31,452 nt of DNA from a virus. The notes under the pieces were generated by a model. That model had not been told where the DNA came from and searched no databases. It saw only the letters and a program-made list of their open reading frames with translations. This document shows positions 1 through 28,629 of this stretch, piece by piece (position 1 is the stretch's first letter; each line of letters begins with the position of its first letter). The stretch is from IMG/VR virus record IMGVR_UViG_3300046005_002020, positions 1 to 31,452 of that record. The stretch is one strand, 5' to 3'. The translations under genes and the position numbers were made by a program.

Positions 1-2732
1 GTCGAGCCAAAACTTATGACGGCTGGCGTTGCTGCAACGGCATTTGCATTTGTCGTTGCGAGTTTAAATGTATTTGCTGTCAATACCACTGCATAGTAAA
101 TAGTATTAACACTCAAGCCATTAATAGTTGTTCCAGTGTAGTAATATTGGACTGGAACACCTGTCGTTAATCCATGATCGATTGATGTTGTTAATATATT
201 CGAGGCGGAATTTGTTATCAATACCTGACTAGCTGCTTTAGAGATTCGGTAAAAAACATTATAAAGTGACGCCTGACCTTCCCAGGATGCGTGAACTTTG
301 CTCCCTATAACACCTGGTGCAATAAAATAGGTACTTTCTGTCAATGTTAAATTAGAAAGAGAGGTAACATAGGGTTGATCTATACCAGTTTTGGGCTTTT
401 GTAGCACTAATCCTGATTCAATTGCGCCAAACTTACTGGGATTATGCTCAACAGCCGATACGGTAAATAAATCTGCATGCTTGCCATCTTGTGCAATCGA
501 TACTACTCTTGCCAACATCGGCACAACTTCATCGCTCAATACAAACACTGCATTGTCTAGTGGCAGTGTTGTTAAGGCTGTTGTCCATGTTAAGGTGGTA
601 AAAGTGCCTGCTGTTTGTGTAAGTACCCTTTCAACAAATGAGCCATCTGCCATCGCTATAAAGATGGATACGGATGCTACAGCAGTTAAGCCTGAGCCTA
701 GCGATAAGGTTACTGGGGCATCTAATGTTGCGGATGTAGAAGAGCATGCAACTATTCTTCCACCTGTTCGTTTGCCTGCTCTAAATGAATCACAAATTTT
801 TATTATTTCACCAGGAAATAACAAGGAGGAATCCAGCCCCACATTGAAGGTAATAATGTTGGATTCGTATTTTTCGCTATAGAGTATCCAGCGCCCTACT
901 CGCTGCGCCTGACCTCTGCTACTGCAACCAAATGCAACAGTGTCAACCTTCTTAATGCCCATCGATGAATTAACCAAATCATGATCTTCAACATACTCGA
1001 CACGTTGCTTGTAATTGTAGTCAGGGTCATTCCATGTCACATTAACAACGCTGTGACGATCTCTTCTTGATGAGCTTGAGTAATTAAACTCGCCATTAAC
1101 CACATTAGCTTGATTAAATATCATTGTGGGTGTGGCTGGAGAATCTTGCCTAAAACAAACCATGCCTCCATTCCAATATGCCATACCTCTAAATACAGAA
1201 GTTATATCAGAAATAATTTTGTAAGCTTCAGCTTGCGTCTGTAACTGTGTATTAATGGTAAAGCGCGCTTCTTTTCCTCCAAAGCCATCATCCACCAATT
1301 CATCACAATATTTGCCAATGGTGTACAACATTGACTTATCAACCTGCACTGCTCCAATGTAGTTACCTAAGCCATAACGTGAGCTTGTTAACAAATCATA
1401 CAGTATCCACGCAGGGTTGCTTGATATCGCTGTAGTAAAGCCGCCATTCCATATGCCTGTATAAATGCCTGTCGCCTTACCATCGCCATCTATTGTGATA
1501 TTGTTGGGAACTTGTATGTACAAGCCATTAACTAAGTAGCCACGACTGGGTACGCTTGAAAAGGTTGTTGGGTCTAAATCAACTGATATTAATGCAGAGT
1601 TAGGGTAATTTAAGTTAGCATCGGTTATTTCAACATAGCTATCAAAATAGGTTTTGTTTTGAAGAGCGGCAGTTGTACTGTCGGCAGTAACCCTTATAAC
1701 TTTTATCGTCCAGCCAATTGTTGCTGTAGGTAACGTCAAAACAGTGCTTTTTTGATATTTTGATTTTGTTTTACCCTTTATTGTTACATCTGTGCCAAAG
1801 GGAACGTAAGAGCCGCCATCGACTGATATCTGAAAATTGTAAGTGACGCTACTTCCGCTAATGTCACCTGTTGACATATCTTGAGAGGTTAGAGCGGCTA
1901 TGTTGATAATAATTCGAACTCGATCAACATTTAAATTGGTAATAGAAAACGTCTTTGGCGAAAGTGTTGTAAACTCAATACTGGACATACTGGTGGGTGT
2001 CTCAATGCTTGAGAAACCAGGTATAACCTCCTGATCAGGACTGCCATCTCTTGAGTCAAAACTGGTTGCTGGAAAATTATAATCACCTGCCTCATTTAAC
2101 AATGCTGTGTTGTTTAGAAATATTGACTGAGCGCCATTAACTAAACCACCAATCTTACCTTCGCCTATCAAGTCAATAACCGATATTTTAGCTTTTGATT
2201 GTAGCGTATCAGCTGCCTCAACCGCTTGTCTTGCCGCACCGCCAGAACCCTTTCCACCACCTCCAGAACCTGTTACAGCCGCGAAACGTTGTCTGTGACC
2301 ACCATTGTGAACCCTTATGCCATCAGCTATAAAAGTGTGATGAGGCTCGACTGTCAAGTTGTAGACAGACTCGCTTTCAACAGCGGTCATGCTGATAATA
2401 GGTCGCAAATGTCCCATGCCATCGACAACTGCATCATGCTCTGTGAGTGTGCCTATTTCAACAAAAGCATTGTATTGGTTTAACACCCAGTGATTAGGTG
2501 TTATAACTATCTCACCATTCCAAAATTTAACATTTAGTAGCGGCTGTGGATCTTCGTGAATATGTAATTTAGTAACCTTTGCAAGATGAATATTATTGTA
2601 CTCATCAAATGCCAATACCGAATCACCCTCCTTAATTAATTCGATAGCAACCGTTTTTCCATGCTCTAACTGAACTTGTGTACCCGCTTTAAAACAGCCA
2701 CCACCTGACCCTATAATTTTTTCAATAGTCAT
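1..2732 (-). CDS. J: Phage tail tip protein J (TipJ family) with N-terminal Hint domain; 3' end cut by window edge
   Basis: This is the central tail-hub and host-specificity protein, at the tail tip where it contacts the receptor. The frame is open from an ATG at 2732 to the left edge (910 codons visible). After a Gly-rich start, residues 13-143 form a Hint (intein-like) domain. The J protein proper resumes with another Gly-rich stretch and then segments that line up by eye with lambda gpJ: SVIDLIGEGKIGGLVNG, ITIKGKTKSKYQKS, YVEITDANLNYPNSALI, SSRYGLGNYIGAVQVDK and RDRHSVVNVTWNDPDYN. The last visible ~200 residues look like fibronectin-type or beta-rich repeats. The ATG overlaps the stop of gene I by one base (TAATG), implying translational coupling. 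The TipJ assignment is firm from these segments. Whether the Hint domain splices or cleaves is not known from sequence. Confidence 0.93.
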   Translation of the reverse strand, partial: MTIEKIIGSGGGCFKAGTQVQLEHGKTVAIELIKEGDSVLAFDEYNNIHLAKVTKLHIHEDPQPLLNVKFWNGEIVITPNHWVLNQYNAFVEIGTLTEHDAVVDGMGHLRPIISMTAVESESVYNLTVEPHHTFIADGIRVHNGGHRQRFAAVTGSGGGGKGSGGAARQAVEAADTLQSKAKISVIDLIGEGKIGGLVNGAQSIFLNNTALLNEAGDYNFPATSFDSRDGSPDQEVIPGFSSIETPTSMSSIEFTTLSPKTFSITNLNVDRVRIIINIAALTSQDMSTGDISGSSVTYNFQISVDGGSYVPFGTDVTIKGKTKSKYQKSTVLTLPTATIGWTIKVIRVTADSTTAALQNKTYFDSYVEITDANLNYPNSALISVDLDPTTFSSVPSRGYLVNGLYIQVPNNITIDGDGKATGIYTGIWNGGFTTAISSNPAWILYDLLTSSRYGLGNYIGAVQVDKSMLYTIGKYCDELVDDGFGGKEARFTINTQLQTQAEAYKIISDITSVFRGMAYWNGGMVCFRQDSPATPTMIFNQANVVNGEFNYSSSSRRDRHSVVNVTWNDPDYNYKQRVEYVEDHDLVNSSMGIKKVDTVAFGCSSRGQAQRVGRWILYSEKYESNIITFNVGLDSSLLFPGEIIKICDSFRAGKRTGGRIVACSSTSATLDAPVTLSLGSGLTAVASVSIFIAMADGSFVERVLTQTAGTFTTLTWTTALTTLPLDNAVFVLSDEVVPMLARVVSIAQDGKHADLFTVSAVEHNPSKFGAIESGLVLQKPKTGIDQPYVTSLSNLTLTESTYFIAPGVIGSKVHASWEGQASLYNVFYRISKAASQVLITNSASNILTTSIDHGLTTGVPVQYYYTGTTINGLSVNTIYYAVVLTANTFKLATTNANAVAATPAVISFGS
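2304..2696 (-). other. Hint (intein-like / BIL-type) domain inside TipJ, 131 aa
   Basis: The domain runs from Cys13 to Asn143 of the J reading frame. Block A begins C-F-K-A-G-T directly after GSGGG. Block B is ITPNHWVL, with the T-x-x-H signature (His81). Blocks F and G read YNLTVEPHHTF followed by IADGIRVHN, ending in the His-Asn pair that cyclises in inteins. The residue after Asn143 is Gly, not Cys, Ser or Thr, so the canonical +1 nucleophile is missing. This matches bacterial intein-like (BIL) domains rather than classic inteins. There is no room for a homing endonuclease. Gly-rich sequence on both sides (GGG before, GGH after) looks like one Gly-rich J N-terminus split by the insertion. 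Confidence 0.88.
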
Positions 2733-3676
2733 TATGCCGCTCCTGTTGTAAAGCTATAGATGGATGTACCTAAATACTTATTATTTACCCAATCTTTAAA
2801 ACAGCCTGATGGTAGCACTACAAAATAAGTAGTATTTGCTGCCAAATTAGTTAATGGATTGATCGTCACTTGCGAGCCATTAATGGTCACTGAGCCGCTT
2901 GTTGCAACATTAATGCTTTCAAACACTGTTCCACTTTTTTTATCTTTACGAATGCGAATAGTGCCTGCGCCCTTTTTGACCGTTTCAGAGAAAGTTAAAA
3001 CAATATTTGTAGTTGTTGCGACACCAACAGCGCCATTTGAGGGGCTGAAAGTAACTATAGTTGGGGCAATTTCATCTTCTGACGAATCATCAACGGTTAA
3101 TGACGCTGATATAGGATGAGAGCCTACTAAACAAGTGCCATAAATAAGCGAGACTGGAACGCCTTGCGCGACTGTATTGGCTGGACCATTAAAGTAGTAA
3201 GAGGTTTTATCAACTCTTGATGAGGTATCATAAGTACCCATCGAAGGTTGAGGTGTTAAGATGGAAACAATGCCCTGTGCCATCATTGCTACGCCACCGA
3301 GACCTGCCATTACAGCTTGTCCAATGGTTAAAAACCCATATTGCTGCAAGGCAACAGCGGCAATAATGATCACTGCCCCTAGTATTATTGCGCCAAACTT
3401 GCCACTACCTTTTAAAACTGGCGTAAAACGGATGCTGATGATTTTTCCATCCATGAACAGTTCTTGCTCGGTAATATCGCTTGTTATGCCATTTTCATAT
3501 TCGCAAGTGACCTGATAACCTTCATAATTAACTAAGTTATCCCTTACCCAATAAGGCAAAGAAGGCTCATTACAACCAATCATGCGTATAGCTTCTGCGG
3601 GTGAATTGACACATAAATCCCACCGTTTACCAAATTTCTTGCCCATTGCGCCATCTAAAATTACCGCTGTCGTCAC
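2732..3676 (-). CDS. I: Tail tip assembly protein I with C-terminal bacterial Ig-like (Big_5-type) domain
   Basis: This is a lambda gpI-like tail-tip assembly protein of 314 aa, sitting between K and J as in lambda. Its start is GTG inside a GTGA overlap with the K stop. Residues 1-200 hold the I-family core, including a strongly hydrophobic Gly/Ala-rich pair of segments around 95-145. Residues ~205-312 are a separate domain: PTIVTFSPSNGAVGV, then NIVLTFSETV, then TYFVVLPSG, ending SIYSFTTG. That is the signature of SbsA/Big_5 Ig-like domains. Lambda gpI is shorter and I do not recall it carrying this module, so the Ig-like domain is an addition here. Phage Ig-like domains are thought to bind surface carbohydrate weakly, but that role is inference for this protein. 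Confidence 0.85.
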   Translation of the reverse strand: MTTAVILDGAMGKKFGKRWDLCVNSPAEAIRMIGCNEPSLPYWVRDNLVNYEGYQVTCEYENGITSDITEQELFMDGKIISIRFTPVLKGSGKFGAIILGAVIIIAAVALQQYGFLTIGQAVMAGLGGVAMMAQGIVSILTPQPSMGTYDTSSRVDKTSYYFNGPANTVAQGVPVSLIYGTCLVGSHPISASLTVDDSSEDEIAPTIVTFSPSNGAVGVATTTNIVLTFSETVKKGAGTIRIRKDKKSGTVFESINVATSGSVTINGSQVTINPLTNLAANTTYFVVLPSGCFKDWVNNKYLGTSIYSFTTGAA

Positions 3677-20722: not shown

Positions 20723-20854
20723 CTAAGCATGACCATCGTCATCATCGTCGTCATAGTCTCTAAAATGATTCGAGTAAATGGCTAACAAGTAAAATGCGCA
20801 GCCATAACTAAAAACGGAAACTATTATGTTTATATCAAACAGAACTGGATTCAC
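20723..20854 (-). CDS. Small single-pass membrane protein with poly-Asp tail
   Basis: This is a 43-codon ORF starting at GTG 20854 with GGAG six bases upstream (GGAGACAAGA-GTG). It overlaps the last 20 bases of the ABC/GNAT gene in another frame. Residues ~4-27 (VLFDINIIVSVFSYGCAFYL onward) would form one membrane helix. The C-terminus carries a run of six Asp and ends G-H-A. The good Shine-Dalgarno and the clean helix-plus-acidic-tail design support it. No function is recognised. Confidence 0.5.
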   Translation of the reverse strand: MNPVLFDINIIVSVFSYGCAFYLLAIYSNHFRDYDDDDDDGHA

Positions 20855-21944
20855 TCTTGTCTCCGATATATTCAAATGATGCGGTTACTCTGTTTGCAGA
20901 GCTTTTAAATATGCCTGTTTTGCCATTAACAGGTACGCGTCCAGGCTTTCTTGTCATTGCCCATTTTTTTGAACGAATGCGATGAGCAATCATTGATGGG
21001 TGACTGGTAACACTGGAGTAACGTTTACCTTGATCAATAAAGTGTTGAGCAATAGCCTCGCTAAATGCGTTGCCAATGCCTACGCCTTGATAATCTGGCA
21101 AACAAACGGTTCGATGCGCACGCCACATGTTCTTCAACTTAGGGTGTGGGAATGGAATAGCTGCGCAAAAAGCAACAGGTTGACCATCAAGAAATGCGAC
21201 AAAACAATGTGCAGATTTGTTAACGGATGCATCTAAATAATGATGGTTTTTGAAAATTCCCCATGCAGAGTGATGTACCCTGCGTATGACGAGTTCGATA
21301 GCTGGTCGCTTAAGTAACCCCCTAGTGATTTTAAATTCACCGGTATCAACGTGATAAATCCAATCAGGCTCTAACCATTCAGCTATGTCGTAATGACAAG
21401 AGATGGCTACCATTTTTCGATTGGTTGAGCGAATCATCTTTTGCACAGCAGATGAACAAACTTTAGCAACTGTTCTGTCAACCACCGATGTGAACTCATC
21501 AATCATAATGGTTTCACCTTCCTTTGACTCTAAGATTAGGCGAGCTATCTCGGTTCTAAATTTTTGACCATTGCTTAAAACTGAAAATGGCAATACCCAA
21601 GATGGTGGCGAACTAAAGCCAACCTTTGATAATGCTTCGACAATTTCTTGCACCTGCAACTCTTTAGCAAAATCATCAACAAAACAATTGGCATTCCAAT
21701 TGTCATGACGCGAGCCGTCAAATAATTTAGCTTCTGGAAAAGCAGCTTTGCCAACAGTTGTCTTGCCGCAACCAGAGGGTCCCACTATTAAACCGATAGA
21801 CCACTCCTCATTCTCTATAGGAATATCGATATCCCATGACTTTGAGAGCTTTTTCTCAACAGGCACATCGAACATACCTTCAATGCAAGCAGATCGAAAG
21901 GATTGTTGGTAATCTACTTCTAACTTATGAGTAAACTTTGGCAT
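20835..21944 (-). CDS. ABC-type ATPase fused to a GNAT (Mom-like?) acyltransferase domain
   Basis: This 369-aa two-domain protein has residues 45-205 as a soluble ABC ATPase: Walker A GPSGCGKT (55-62), signature LSNGQ (123-127), Walker B TIMIDEFTSVVD (145-156) and H-loop H184. There are no membrane segments. Residues ~215-365 are GNAT-like, with HHSAWGIFKNHHYLD, AFCAAIPFPHPKLKN and the acyl-CoA loop DYQGVGIG (284-291). I recognise this GNAT type from phage proteins related to Mu Mom, which makes N6-carbamoylmethyladenine; that assignment is from memory. The ATG is two bases after the ParB-like stop, so both are co-translated. The likely role is ATP-driven DNA base modification or protection. 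Confidence 0.75.
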   Translation of the reverse strand: MPKFTHKLEVDYQQSFRSACIEGMFDVPVEKKLSKSWDIDIPIENEEWSIGLIVGPSGCGKTTVGKAAFPEAKLFDGSRHDNWNANCFVDDFAKELQVQEIVEALSKVGFSSPPSWVLPFSVLSNGQKFRTEIARLILESKEGETIMIDEFTSVVDRTVAKVCSSAVQKMIRSTNRKMVAISCHYDIAEWLEPDWIYHVDTGEFKITRGLLKRPAIELVIRRVHHSAWGIFKNHHYLDASVNKSAHCFVAFLDGQPVAFCAAIPFPHPKLKNMWRAHRTVCLPDYQGVGIGNAFSEAIAQHFIDQGKRYSSVTSHPSMIAHRIRSKKWAMTRKPGRVPVNGKTGIFKSSANRVTASFEYIGDKSESSSV

Positions 21945-21946
21945 AA

Positions 21947-22579
21947 TTATGTCGTCATGATGCTACAGTCACGACCATCAGCTTTAAGTTGTTGCCATAA
22001 CTCAAACTGCTCTGCTTCGCCTGAACACTTAATTGATACTATGTAAGATTTTTCGTATTCAACATCTTTGATTGTTGGCTTAGGCTTATCAATTTCTTCA
22101 AAGTTGTCGATATCTACTGGCAGCATCCTACTAATGTCGTCTGTTGAAAATTTTTCTAAAATGGACTGAACTTCAGTTGTTTCCATGCCAAATAGTTCAA
22201 CATCTAAAAGCGAAAAATCGTAGCCTGAAGTTAGCTGTTTAATTTCATTAGCCAATAATGCGTCATCGTAATCGTTGCTTGACACTTTGTTGTCGGCAAT
22301 TCGATAAACGCCCTTCTGCACTTCGGTCAGATTTCTTTTAACGATGACAGGTACTTTTTTGAACTTGAGTTTTAGCGCGGCTAAACGTCTTCCATGACCT
22401 GCTAAAATTATGCCATCCTCATCGATAAGAATAGGAACGTTAAAGCCAAACTCTTTAATAGTTTTTGCTAATTTATTAACCTTTTCTTTTGTATGAATCT
22501 TGGCATTGTTTTCATAGGGTATAATTTTTTCGATATCCCACGATTCAATTTTAAGAATTTCTGAATTCTTTTCCGTCAT
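21947..22579 (-). CDS. ParB/Srx-fold (ParB N-terminal-like) protein 1
   Basis: This 210-aa protein has a ParB/sulfiredoxin-like domain at residues ~10-100: IIPYENNAKIHTKEKVNKLA, then FNVPILIDEDGIILAGHGRR (G61-H-G-R-R65), then VPVIVKRNLTEVQ. The pattern matches phage ParB-like nuclease or CTPase domains rather than partition ParB; no HTH of the ParB type follows. The C-terminal half (~105-210) is acidic and mixed and not recognised. An AGGA-type Shine-Dalgarno precedes the ATG. It forms an apparent operon with ABC/GNAT; in phages such proteins often travel with DNA modification enzymes. Confidence 0.8.
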   Translation of the reverse strand: MTEKNSEILKIESWDIEKIIPYENNAKIHTKEKVNKLAKTIKEFGFNVPILIDEDGIILAGHGRRLAALKLKFKKVPVIVKRNLTEVQKGVYRIADNKVSSNDYDDALLANEIKQLTSGYDFSLLDVELFGMETTEVQSILEKFSTDDISRMLPVDIDNFEEIDKPKPTIKDVEYEKSYIVSIKCSGEAEQFELWQQLKADGRDCSIMTT

Positions 22580-22897: not shown

Positions 22898-23584
22898 TCA
22901 TCGCACTTCTTCTGAGGTGTAAGAAGTTGCGCTTAATAAGTGATGCACTAATGCATCCCCTGCGTTTGTTAATGCGTCACTTTCTGTAAATCCGTTAATC
23001 TTTATGGTGTCTTTTAGCATCTGCTCAATATTGGCAGCATCTTCTAAAGAAACTTTAAATCGCATGATGGTATGTGTTTTTGGCAATGATGTTTTATCGC
23101 CTAATTCTTCAATATCATCTTCGTCAAACTCCAAACCAATTAAACTGTTTAAATCTATCTTAGATGCCGACATCAAGGTTTCGATTTCAATAACGCTTAA
23201 TGGCATGATGTCTGAAAGAATGTTTGCATCTTCTAATGAATTTAACAAATCTGAGAGCTTTAGACTGTCATCTGAGCCATAACGTGCGTTATGCGTTAAG
23301 CTTATCTCCTTCGCTTGATTGTCGTTAATGTTTTTCAACACAATGACTGGCAATTCCTTTATGCCAATTTTTTTTGCAACCCTCGTTCTATGTTCTCCAC
23401 CTAGTATTTGATAACTGCCATCAAATAACTCTCTTGCGATAATGGCATCGTACATGTTATTTCGCTTTAGACTCTCTGCTAACTTCGCTTCATTTTCTAA
23501 GCTCATAACATTGGAGTTCCAGGGATTGCTTGTCAGTAATTCTGTACTAATGTAGGTGATGTCTATTTTTTTCGTCTGTTCCAT
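22898..23584 (-). CDS. ParB/Srx-fold (ParB N-terminal-like) protein 2
   Basis: This 228-aa protein has a ParB-like domain at residues ~8-110: STELLTSNPWNSNVMS, then DAIIARELFDGSYQILGGEH (62-66), continuing R-T-R-V-A-K-K, then LPVIVLKNINDNQAKEI. It differs from protein 1 in length and sequence, so the pair is not a recent duplicate. Residues 110-228 are mixed, ending in an acidic helix. It leads the leftward cluster; the 80-90 bp to its left-right partner, the helicase gene, contains one operator-like palindrome serving both. I see no Shine-Dalgarno. Confidence 0.75.
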   Translation of the reverse strand: MEQTKKIDITYISTELLTSNPWNSNVMSLENEAKLAESLKRNNMYDAIIARELFDGSYQILGGEHRTRVAKKIGIKELPVIVLKNINDNQAKEISLTHNARYGSDDSLKLSDLLNSLEDANILSDIMPLSVIEIETLMSASKIDLNSLIGLEFDEDDIEELGDKTSLPKTHTIMRFKVSLEDAANIEQMLKDTIKINGFTESDALTNAGDALVHHLLSATSYTSEEVR

Positions 23585-26720: not shown

Positions 26721-27740
26721 TTAGGTGAATTTCAGTCTCGTTACATTTCCGCTTGCAACCGTTTTTGCAACGATTCCTGAAATACTGTTAGCATGTTTAG
26801 AAAGATGTTCAGGTGCGAGATGGGCATATCGAAGGACCATCTCGTAGCTTGACCATCCACCCAATTCCTGTAAAACATTTAAAGGTGTTCCTGCTTGTAC
26901 ATGCCAACTTGCCCATGTATGTCGCAAACCATGCCAACAAAAATCTTCAATACCCACTCTATCTAATGCATTTCTCCACGCCTTTGTGGATACCTGCACT
27001 ATCGGCTTACCTTTATAAGTGAATACTCGTCTTTTGTGATTGCCTATTTGCTGACGCAATATATCTAAGGCATCTTGATTTAACGGTACTCTGATTGATT
27101 TGCCATTTTTGGCTTGATCCGCATGTATCCACGCAATTCTATTTTGCATATCAATCTGCGACCACTCCAACCCTGTGACATTACTTGCTCTCAATCCTGT
27201 CGATAATGTAAACAACATCATCGCACGACTATGAGGTTGTAATTCAGCAGCCAATTTCTCCGCTTCTGACCTCGTTAACCACCGAAGTCGCTCATTAGAC
27301 TCTTTAAACTGTCTAACGTAAGGCGCTGAATCAATCCATAACCATTTCTTACATGCCTTATTTAAAATGGCTCTGACAATGCCCGTTGTTCTGTTGCATC
27401 GTGTAGTTCCTGCAACTTTTAGCTTTGCCTTGATGATGCGTTCAATAACATCAGTAGTAATATCATCAAGAGCCATATCATTTAGATAAGGCGCTAACCA
27501 TCTTAAGTGCCCCTTCTCTGTTTCAATCGATTTGTTTTCAGACTCCTTTAACCAACGAATAACTGCATCTTGCCACAAGTAAATTGGCTTAGATGTTTGA
27601 GGTGCATTTAGTTCATCTGAGTAAGCTTGTGCCTCGATTGCTCTTGCTTCCTCTTTGTTGCTGGTGCCAGTAGATCGATATACAACTTTTCCTTTGACGC
27701 TGAACTTGTAATACCAGATTTCTTTTCTTTTAAAGAGCAT
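26721..27740 (-). CDS. int: Tyrosine-family phage integrase
   Basis: This 339-aa site-specific recombinase has an N-terminal arm-binding/SAM-like domain (~1-150) and catalytic residues R184 (TGLRASNVTGLEW), a Lys near 213, H270-x-x-R273 (HGLRHTW), W296 (GGWSSYE) and nucleophile Y305 (LRYAHLAP). It cuts and joins att sites. Its stop lies 14 bases from the tRNA-derived core, and its last ~20 codons contain GCAACG-type repeats, so coding and arm sites overlap. Its 5' end overlaps the excisionase-like gene by 133 bases in another frame. All key residues are present. Confidence 0.95.
   Translation of the reverse strand: MLFKRKEIWYYKFSVKGKVVYRSTGTSNKEEARAIEAQAYSDELNAPQTSKPIYLWQDAVIRWLKESENKSIETEKGHLRWLAPYLNDMALDDITTDVIERIIKAKLKVAGTTRCNRTTGIVRAILNKACKKWLWIDSAPYVRQFKESNERLRWLTRSEAEKLAAELQPHSRAMMLFTLSTGLRASNVTGLEWSQIDMQNRIAWIHADQAKNGKSIRVPLNQDALDILRQQIGNHKRRVFTYKGKPIVQVSTKAWRNALDRVGIEDFCWHGLRHTWASWHVQAGTPLNVLQELGGWSSYEMVLRYAHLAPEHLSKHANSISGIVAKTVASGNVTRLKFT
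26752..26777. repeat. Candidate arm-binding sites, right arm of attP, inside int
   Basis: CTTGCAACCGTTT and TTGCAACGATTCC lie back to back in the codons for S-G-I-V-A-K-T-V-A-S. Together they repeat ~31 bases of the left arm (26537-26567), with one substitution and a two-base insertion. Confidence 0.6.
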
Positions 27741-28015: not shown

Positions 28016-28091
28016 TGGAGCCACCGAGAGGAATCGAACCCCCAACCCTCTGATTACAAGTCAGATGCTCTACCGATTGAGCTACAGTGGC
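28016..28091 (-). tRNA. tRNA-Thr(TGT)
   Basis: This is a 76-nt tRNA with acceptor stem GCCACTG/CGGTGGC, D-arm TAGCTCAATCGGTAGAGC, anticodon loop CTTGTAA (anticodon TGT) in a 5-bp stem, a T-arm with GTTCGATTC, discriminator T and encoded CCA (28018-28016). It reads ACA codons (and related Thr codons). It lies just upstream of the excisionase-like gene on the same strand. Confidence 0.95.
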
Positions 28092-28554: not shown

Positions 28555-28629
28555 TGGCTGGCAAGGCAGGGATCGAACCTGCGACAATCTGATTAACAGT
28601 CAGGTGTTCTACCGCTGAACTACTCGCCA
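28555..28629 (-). tRNA. tRNA-Asn(GTT)
   Basis: This is a 75-nt tRNA with acceptor stem TGGCGAG/CTTGCCA, a D-arm starting TAGTTCAGC, anticodon loop CTGTTAA (anticodon GTT), a T-arm with GCAGG-TTCGATC-CCTGC, discriminator G and encoded CCA (28557-28555). The base pair closing the top of the anticodon stem (27-43) is C.A, a small flaw. It reads AAC/AAT codons. Confidence 0.92.

Follow-up and report, generated by a model that had tools for sequence, protein, structure and literature searches.

The DNA analyzed here, referred to as the window, is the whole 31,452-base IMG/VR virus record IMGVR_UViG_3300046005_002020. As assigned with Pfam and PHROG, its genes follow the order tape measure, M, L, K (with JAB and NlpC/P60 domains), I, J, head genes and integrase, and the phage is judged from its sequence to be a temperate siphophage of the lambda type. 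The last tail gene in this order, J, is cut off at the end of the window. Its product matches FNIII-A_GpJ (E = 1e-29) and Phage-tail_3 (E = 1e-25), and the PHROG central tail fiber J matches from residue 156 with E = 1e-224. The PHROG J families begin at residues 156-159, within a Gly-rich linker that follows a Hint domain. The protein that carries the Hint domain is a lambda-type tail-tip J, as given by its FNIII-A and Phage-tail_3 domains and by the location of its gene after M-L-K-I. The gene directly upstream encodes a gpI-like protein, matched by phrog_32 (E = 3e-47) and weakly by Pfam Lambda_tail_I. This protein (2735-3676) also displays an additional C-terminal bacterial Ig-like domain, Big_5, at residues 201-311 (E = 2e-19), past the usual end of gpI. 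The features of the locus are as follows.

2732 to 3676, minus strand: gpI-like tail assembly gene, directly upstream of J, its stop overlapping the J start by one base
2732 down to 3, minus strand: J gene, incomplete, cut off at the window end
2730 to 2732, minus strand: J start codon ATG, from the translation, with an AGGAG ribosome-binding site at 2740-2744
2697 to 2732, minus strand: N-terminal extein, J residues 1-12, MTIEKIIGSGGG, from the translation; its C-terminal end is the conserved [IV]-x-G-x-G-G-G motif
2304 to 2696, minus strand: Hint domain (type A BIL-like), J residues 13-143, from profile searches, AlphaFold2, structure matches and the family alignment
2694 to 2696, minus strand: Cys13, Hint residue 1, predicted thioester former, invariant (76/76)
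2490 to 2501, minus strand: block B, T78-P-N-H81, with T, N and H each 76/76
2337 to 2339, minus strand: block F His132 (His 69/76, Gln 5, Lys 2)
2304 to 2309, minus strand: His142-Asn143, predicted C-terminal cleavage via Asn cyclization (Asn 76/76; TIGR01443 above cut-off)
2298 to 2303, minus strand: +1 Gly144 and +2 Gly145, the +1 side chain non-nucleophilic (+1 K/G/A, +2 Gly 76/76)
2232 to 2303, minus strand: C-extein linker, J residues 144-167, GGHRQRFAAVTGSGGGGKGSGGAA, from the translation, mostly disordered in the model
2253 to 2276, minus strand: VTGSGGGG, J residues 153-160, repeating the end of the N-extein
3 to 2231, minus strand: J body (tail-tip protein), from FNIII-A_GpJ, Phage-tail_3 and PHROG J families, truncated at the window end

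The Hint domain of the window is complete at 131 residues, running from C13 through T78-P-N-H81 and HHTF (131-134) to VHN (141-143), after which G144 follows. The original prediction had described a self-contained Hint domain at J residues 13-143 with C13, TPNH and HN143, followed by Gly at +1 and located in the Gly-rich N-terminus of J. Its coordinates proved exact, all of these residues are present in the translation, the fold is modelled, and the domain is inserted in the Gly/Lys linker. In the AlphaFold2 model, which had been proposed as a check, residues 13-143 reach a pLDDT of 94-98 and both flanks are disordered. Pfam models of the Hint clan match with E values of 5e-6 to 4e-5, which lie under Pfam's own cut-offs, and TIGR01443 (intein_Cterm) passes with a score of 24.2 against a curated cut-off of 15.6. 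The best PDB sequence match of the Hint profile is 2LWY, a type A BIL of Clostridium thermocellum (E = 1.6e-18), followed by BIL2 of Tetrahymena BUBL1 (approximately 2e-16), with the best true intein at approximately 1e-12. Foldseek superposes the model on 2LWY with a TMt of 0.87 and an rmsd of 1.6, and VIA-align gives Z scores of approximately 21-22 against BIL and intein structures (21.1 for 2LWY). Structure alone ties BILs with inteins, and the sequence is closer to BILs.

Relatives were found by scans with the Hint and with the J body, the latter free of selection on the Hint. Because the initial scans for Hints and genomes required TxNHW or VHN patterns, the J-body scans are the basis for calling these residues invariant; in loci retrieved by J-body patterns the block B T-x-N-H is also retained. 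In total, 175 open frames with both Hint and J were acquired, mostly from metagenomic contigs of which some were fetched repeatedly, corresponding to 76 distinct Hints. None of the 175 contains an incomplete Hint, and all 76 distinct Hints occupy the same Gly/Lys linker of J. Cys1, Thr78, Asn80 and His81 of block B and the terminal Asn are each found in 76/76. The penultimate residue is His in 71 and Ser in 5, block F holds His in 69, Gln in 5 and Lys in 2, and the -1 residue is Gly in 75 of the 76. Statistics of the +1 residue in TipJ/J proteins had likewise been suggested, and they give Lys in 38, Gly in 33, Ala in 5 and Cys, Ser or Thr in none, always followed by Gly at +2 (76/76). With these counts and 2LWY as the best sequence match, the earlier assignment as BIL-like rather than canonical intein is borne out. 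The Hint sequences diverge to approximately 26% identity. Among close pairs the median dN/dS is 0.11 for the Hint and 0.135 for the J body, values that indicate purifying selection on the Hint. An inert Hint, retained in J as a decoration, is extremely improbable: the site is a flexible linker tolerant of insertions, but the catalytic residues are invariant throughout the distinct Hints and the junction residues are limited to G, K and A.

Two J lineages carry the Hint, clade A, which includes the window, and clade B, of the 'LFSTDIL...PNGPQDIEFNE' type. One Hint lineage of clade B (L172-L175, L183, L184 and L188) displays a Ser-Asn end instead of His-Asn and a TDNHY block B, with the +1 Lys kept. 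A mid-chain Hint was also observed in a hub protein from a Magnetococcales MAG (L132, 4383-6839), where it is followed by HN-GGGGKGSSTVDSPG; this C-extein is nearly identical to that of the J protein of L027.

Comparison with known systems places the J Hint nearest to type A BILs. It shares with the C. thermocellum domain the fold, the size, the Cys1/TxxH/His-Asn set (His in 71/76), the absence of a +1 nucleophile, the absence of a homing endonuclease and the nearer sequence. The usual context of type A BILs, a reported distribution that lies outside the sequence definition, is different: known BILs have been reported from bacterial proteins that are not conserved, in hypervariable regions, whereas the J Hint occupies one constant position in an essential virion protein, in many phages and two J lineages, always followed by [G/K/A]-G. 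BIL2 of BUBL1 (6Y75, 6TMM) resembles the J Hint in its fold (Z 21), in the thioester and Asn chemistry expected, and in amine ligation, which is predicted in J; it differs in being located between ubiquitin-like domains, in acting via a lysine side chain, in zinc control and in its eukaryotic origin (PMC8616854). The class 1 mini-inteins SspDnaB and NpuDnaB share the fold (Z approximately 22), C1, TxxH, HN and a precise insert with intein-less alleles, and J likewise shows presence and absence at one exact site. These mini-inteins, however, require Cys, Ser or Thr at +1, which none of the 76 J Hints has, and the J Hint differs further in its insertion in a disordered linker. A homing endonuclease is absent from the J Hint, as it also is from mini-inteins, and an origin by endonuclease homing was rejected, given a 131-residue pure Hint with no endonuclease domain. 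PT-HINT and MafB-type toxin Hints belong to the same superfamily but precede a C-terminal toxin, while the J Hint stands at the start of J; identity with PT-HINT was rejected, since the window Hint scores 24.2 against the Pfam cut-off of 27.7 and the J body instead of a toxin lies behind it.

Comparison with J proteins that have no Hint indicates that the domain is a precise insertion in the Gly/Lys linker. Among loci retrieved by the J body, the Hint is present in 44 of the 79 from clade B and in 9 of the 80 from clade A, corresponding to 3 changes on the J tree of clade B and at least 10 in clade A, where the distribution is patchy. The clearest pair consists of L278, which carries the Hint, and L268, which does not. 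Their DNA identity is 90.7% upstream and 90.8% downstream of the insert, and the difference is 432 bp, exactly 144 codons, between 15-bp direct repeats GGTGCTGG(T/C)GGTGGT in the Gly tract, with approximately 2 kb upstream aligned unbroken. Since the two differ by the exact insert between the same flanks, J is carried by phages in both states, which argues that the Hint is not generally required. It appears that the Gly-codon repeats allow the insert to be gained or lost. Free mobility as the only explanation was rejected, because Hints group largely by J clade in their tree, with 5 changes against 23 when shuffled. Some mismatches between Hint and J dS values point to recombination, and the pairwise identities of Hint and J across the whole set, for which rough J alignments were used, correlate weakly. 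A role as a timing switch, in which the Hint would mask the J N-terminus until an assembly partner triggers excision and so makes J competent for tail-tip assembly, is improbable. The Hint does lie at the boundary along which the hub, a single chain in T5, is divided into gpL/gpI/gpJ in lambda (PMC10721106), and it has been retained through the deep divergence of clade B; its patchiness in clade A and the unbroken upstream alignment of L278 and L268 count against such a role.

The Hint is probably a type A BIL-like domain that excises itself from the J precursor after translation, a proposal drawn from sequence and fold. For type A BILs, the proposed mechanism consists of a Cys1 thioester, Asn cyclization and attack of the freed amine on the thioester (PMC4031507). 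By analogy, Cys13 would attack the Gly12-Cys13 bond with the help of Thr78 and His81 of block B, giving a Gly thioester. Asn143, aided by His142, would then cyclize and release the C-extein, whose amine at Gly144 (in relatives, Lys or Ala) would be free and unhindered. Finally, this amine would attack the Gly12 thioester, joining the N-extein to J with no participation of a +1 side chain; alternatively the thioester would be hydrolyzed and J would start at Gly144. Gly at -1 and G/K/A-Gly at +1/+2 may serve as unhindered partners for aminolysis. Departures from the canonical residues, namely Gln or Lys at block F in 7/76 Hints and the penultimate Ser in 5/76, count against the proposal. Published type A BILs give mostly cleavage products (PMC4031507), so that efficient ligation in J would be unusual.

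The exteins of clade B bear on the last step. The P-x-I-x-G motif is found in 35 of 36 N-exteins of Hint-carrying proteins and in 17 of 17 Hint-less J proteins, and the predicted ligated linker would measure 17-23 residues, compared with 11-20 in Hint-less J. The dN/dS of the N-extein is 0.138 (17 pairs); at positions -20 to -9, away from the Gly junction, it is 0.177 (bootstrap 0.12-0.24), against 0.180 for the J body. Purifying selection acts on the N-extein as it does on J, so that mere loss of the whole segment up to the Asn is unlikely in this clade. Together with the invariant catalytic set, this constraint favors excision with ligation, the joined product of which would resemble Hint-less J. 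Conservation of the N-extein could alternatively reflect a released peptide that stays bound to J.

The arrangement in clade A, the lineage of the window, is different. All 29 N-exteins end in [IV]xGxGGG, a motif shared with Hint-less J N-termini, and the sequence ahead of it is variable. The C-exteins repeat the J start motif in 25 of 29 cases, often as GGHRxRYPVIxGAGGGGK, close to the Hint-less J start of, for example, Salmonella phage SSU5. Cleavage alone would therefore leave a native-looking J from Gly144, ligation is not needed there, and ligation would leave a tandem motif. Cleavage as the only outcome throughout the family, in which Asn143 cyclization plus thioester hydrolysis removes residues 1-143 and discards the N-extein as a leader, is rather unlikely. 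It draws on the native-looking start GGHRxRYPVIxGxGGGGK behind the clade A Hint, on the variable N-extein and on the mainly cleaving behavior of type A BILs (PMC4031507). Against it stand the clade B N-exteins, which are constrained like J and carry a J start motif that cleavage would strip, and the retention of [IV]xGxGGG in every clade A N-extein. In the clade to which the window belongs, ligation and plain cleavage appear about equally likely. Cleavage, splicing and covalent attachment had been listed by the original prediction with no weighing between them; in this list, removal of residues 1-143 stands as plausible as splicing in the clade of the window, while for clade B removal is unlikely and ligation is favored.

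Attack on the Gly12 thioester by a lysine of another tail-tip chain, which would leave the N-extein as an isopeptide cross-link in the tail tip, is very improbable. The second-closest solved relative, BUBL1 BIL2, ligates through lysine and forms such an isopeptide bond (PMC8616854), Lys occupies +1 in half of the Hints, and lysines are common in the linker. However, no conserved acceptor was found, an amine of the same chain would become free right at the active site, and L268, a close relative of L278, is entirely devoid of the Hint. For clade B, splicing within J is the preferred form of the proposal. In a broader sense, it is conceivable, at somewhat less than even likelihood, that phage tail maturation employs splicing or ligation with no +1 nucleophile, by which an essential virion protein is joined through aminolysis or, at the extreme, a J-terminal peptide is transferred to a neighboring tail-tip chain as an isopeptide cross-link.

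Hint domains in TipJ had been said to be annotated but not explained. This agrees with our searches: database entries exist, and no description of Hint or BIL domains in tail-tip J was found in openly searchable papers. Five Hint-J queries in tblastn gave no Hint-J in cultured phages, where the hits, if any, were Hints of other proteins, many of them annotated as helicase, and no plasmid record held Hint and J together. Apart from the Oxalobacter genome itself, a family search around it gave J without Hint or Hints without J. A structural match from an uncultured virus, A0A218MKA3 (1016 aa, 34% identity), is probably another Hint-J. The kind of domain is known; what is new to us is that it occupies a constant position in a conserved virion protein, with uniform junctions and natural Hint-less controls. 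The natural role of BIL domains and their splicing in vivo are poorly settled, and most are known from variable bacterial proteins. A constant site in an essential and well-mapped virion protein, natural Hint-less controls and two insert geometries with different predicted outcomes make the question directly testable. If ligation were efficient, these 131-residue domains with Gly-Cys and Asn-Gly or Asn-Lys junctions would represent natural tools for splicing without a Cys, Ser or Thr scar.

Elsewhere in the window, two genes with ParB_N-like matches are located at 21947-22579 and 22898-23584, the first below the Pfam cut-off, and are adjoined by a phrog_11143 gene at 20835-21944. Near the integrase (26721-27740), tRNA-Thr (28016-28091) and tRNA-Asn (28555-28629) may mark an attachment site or the host flank of a prophage.
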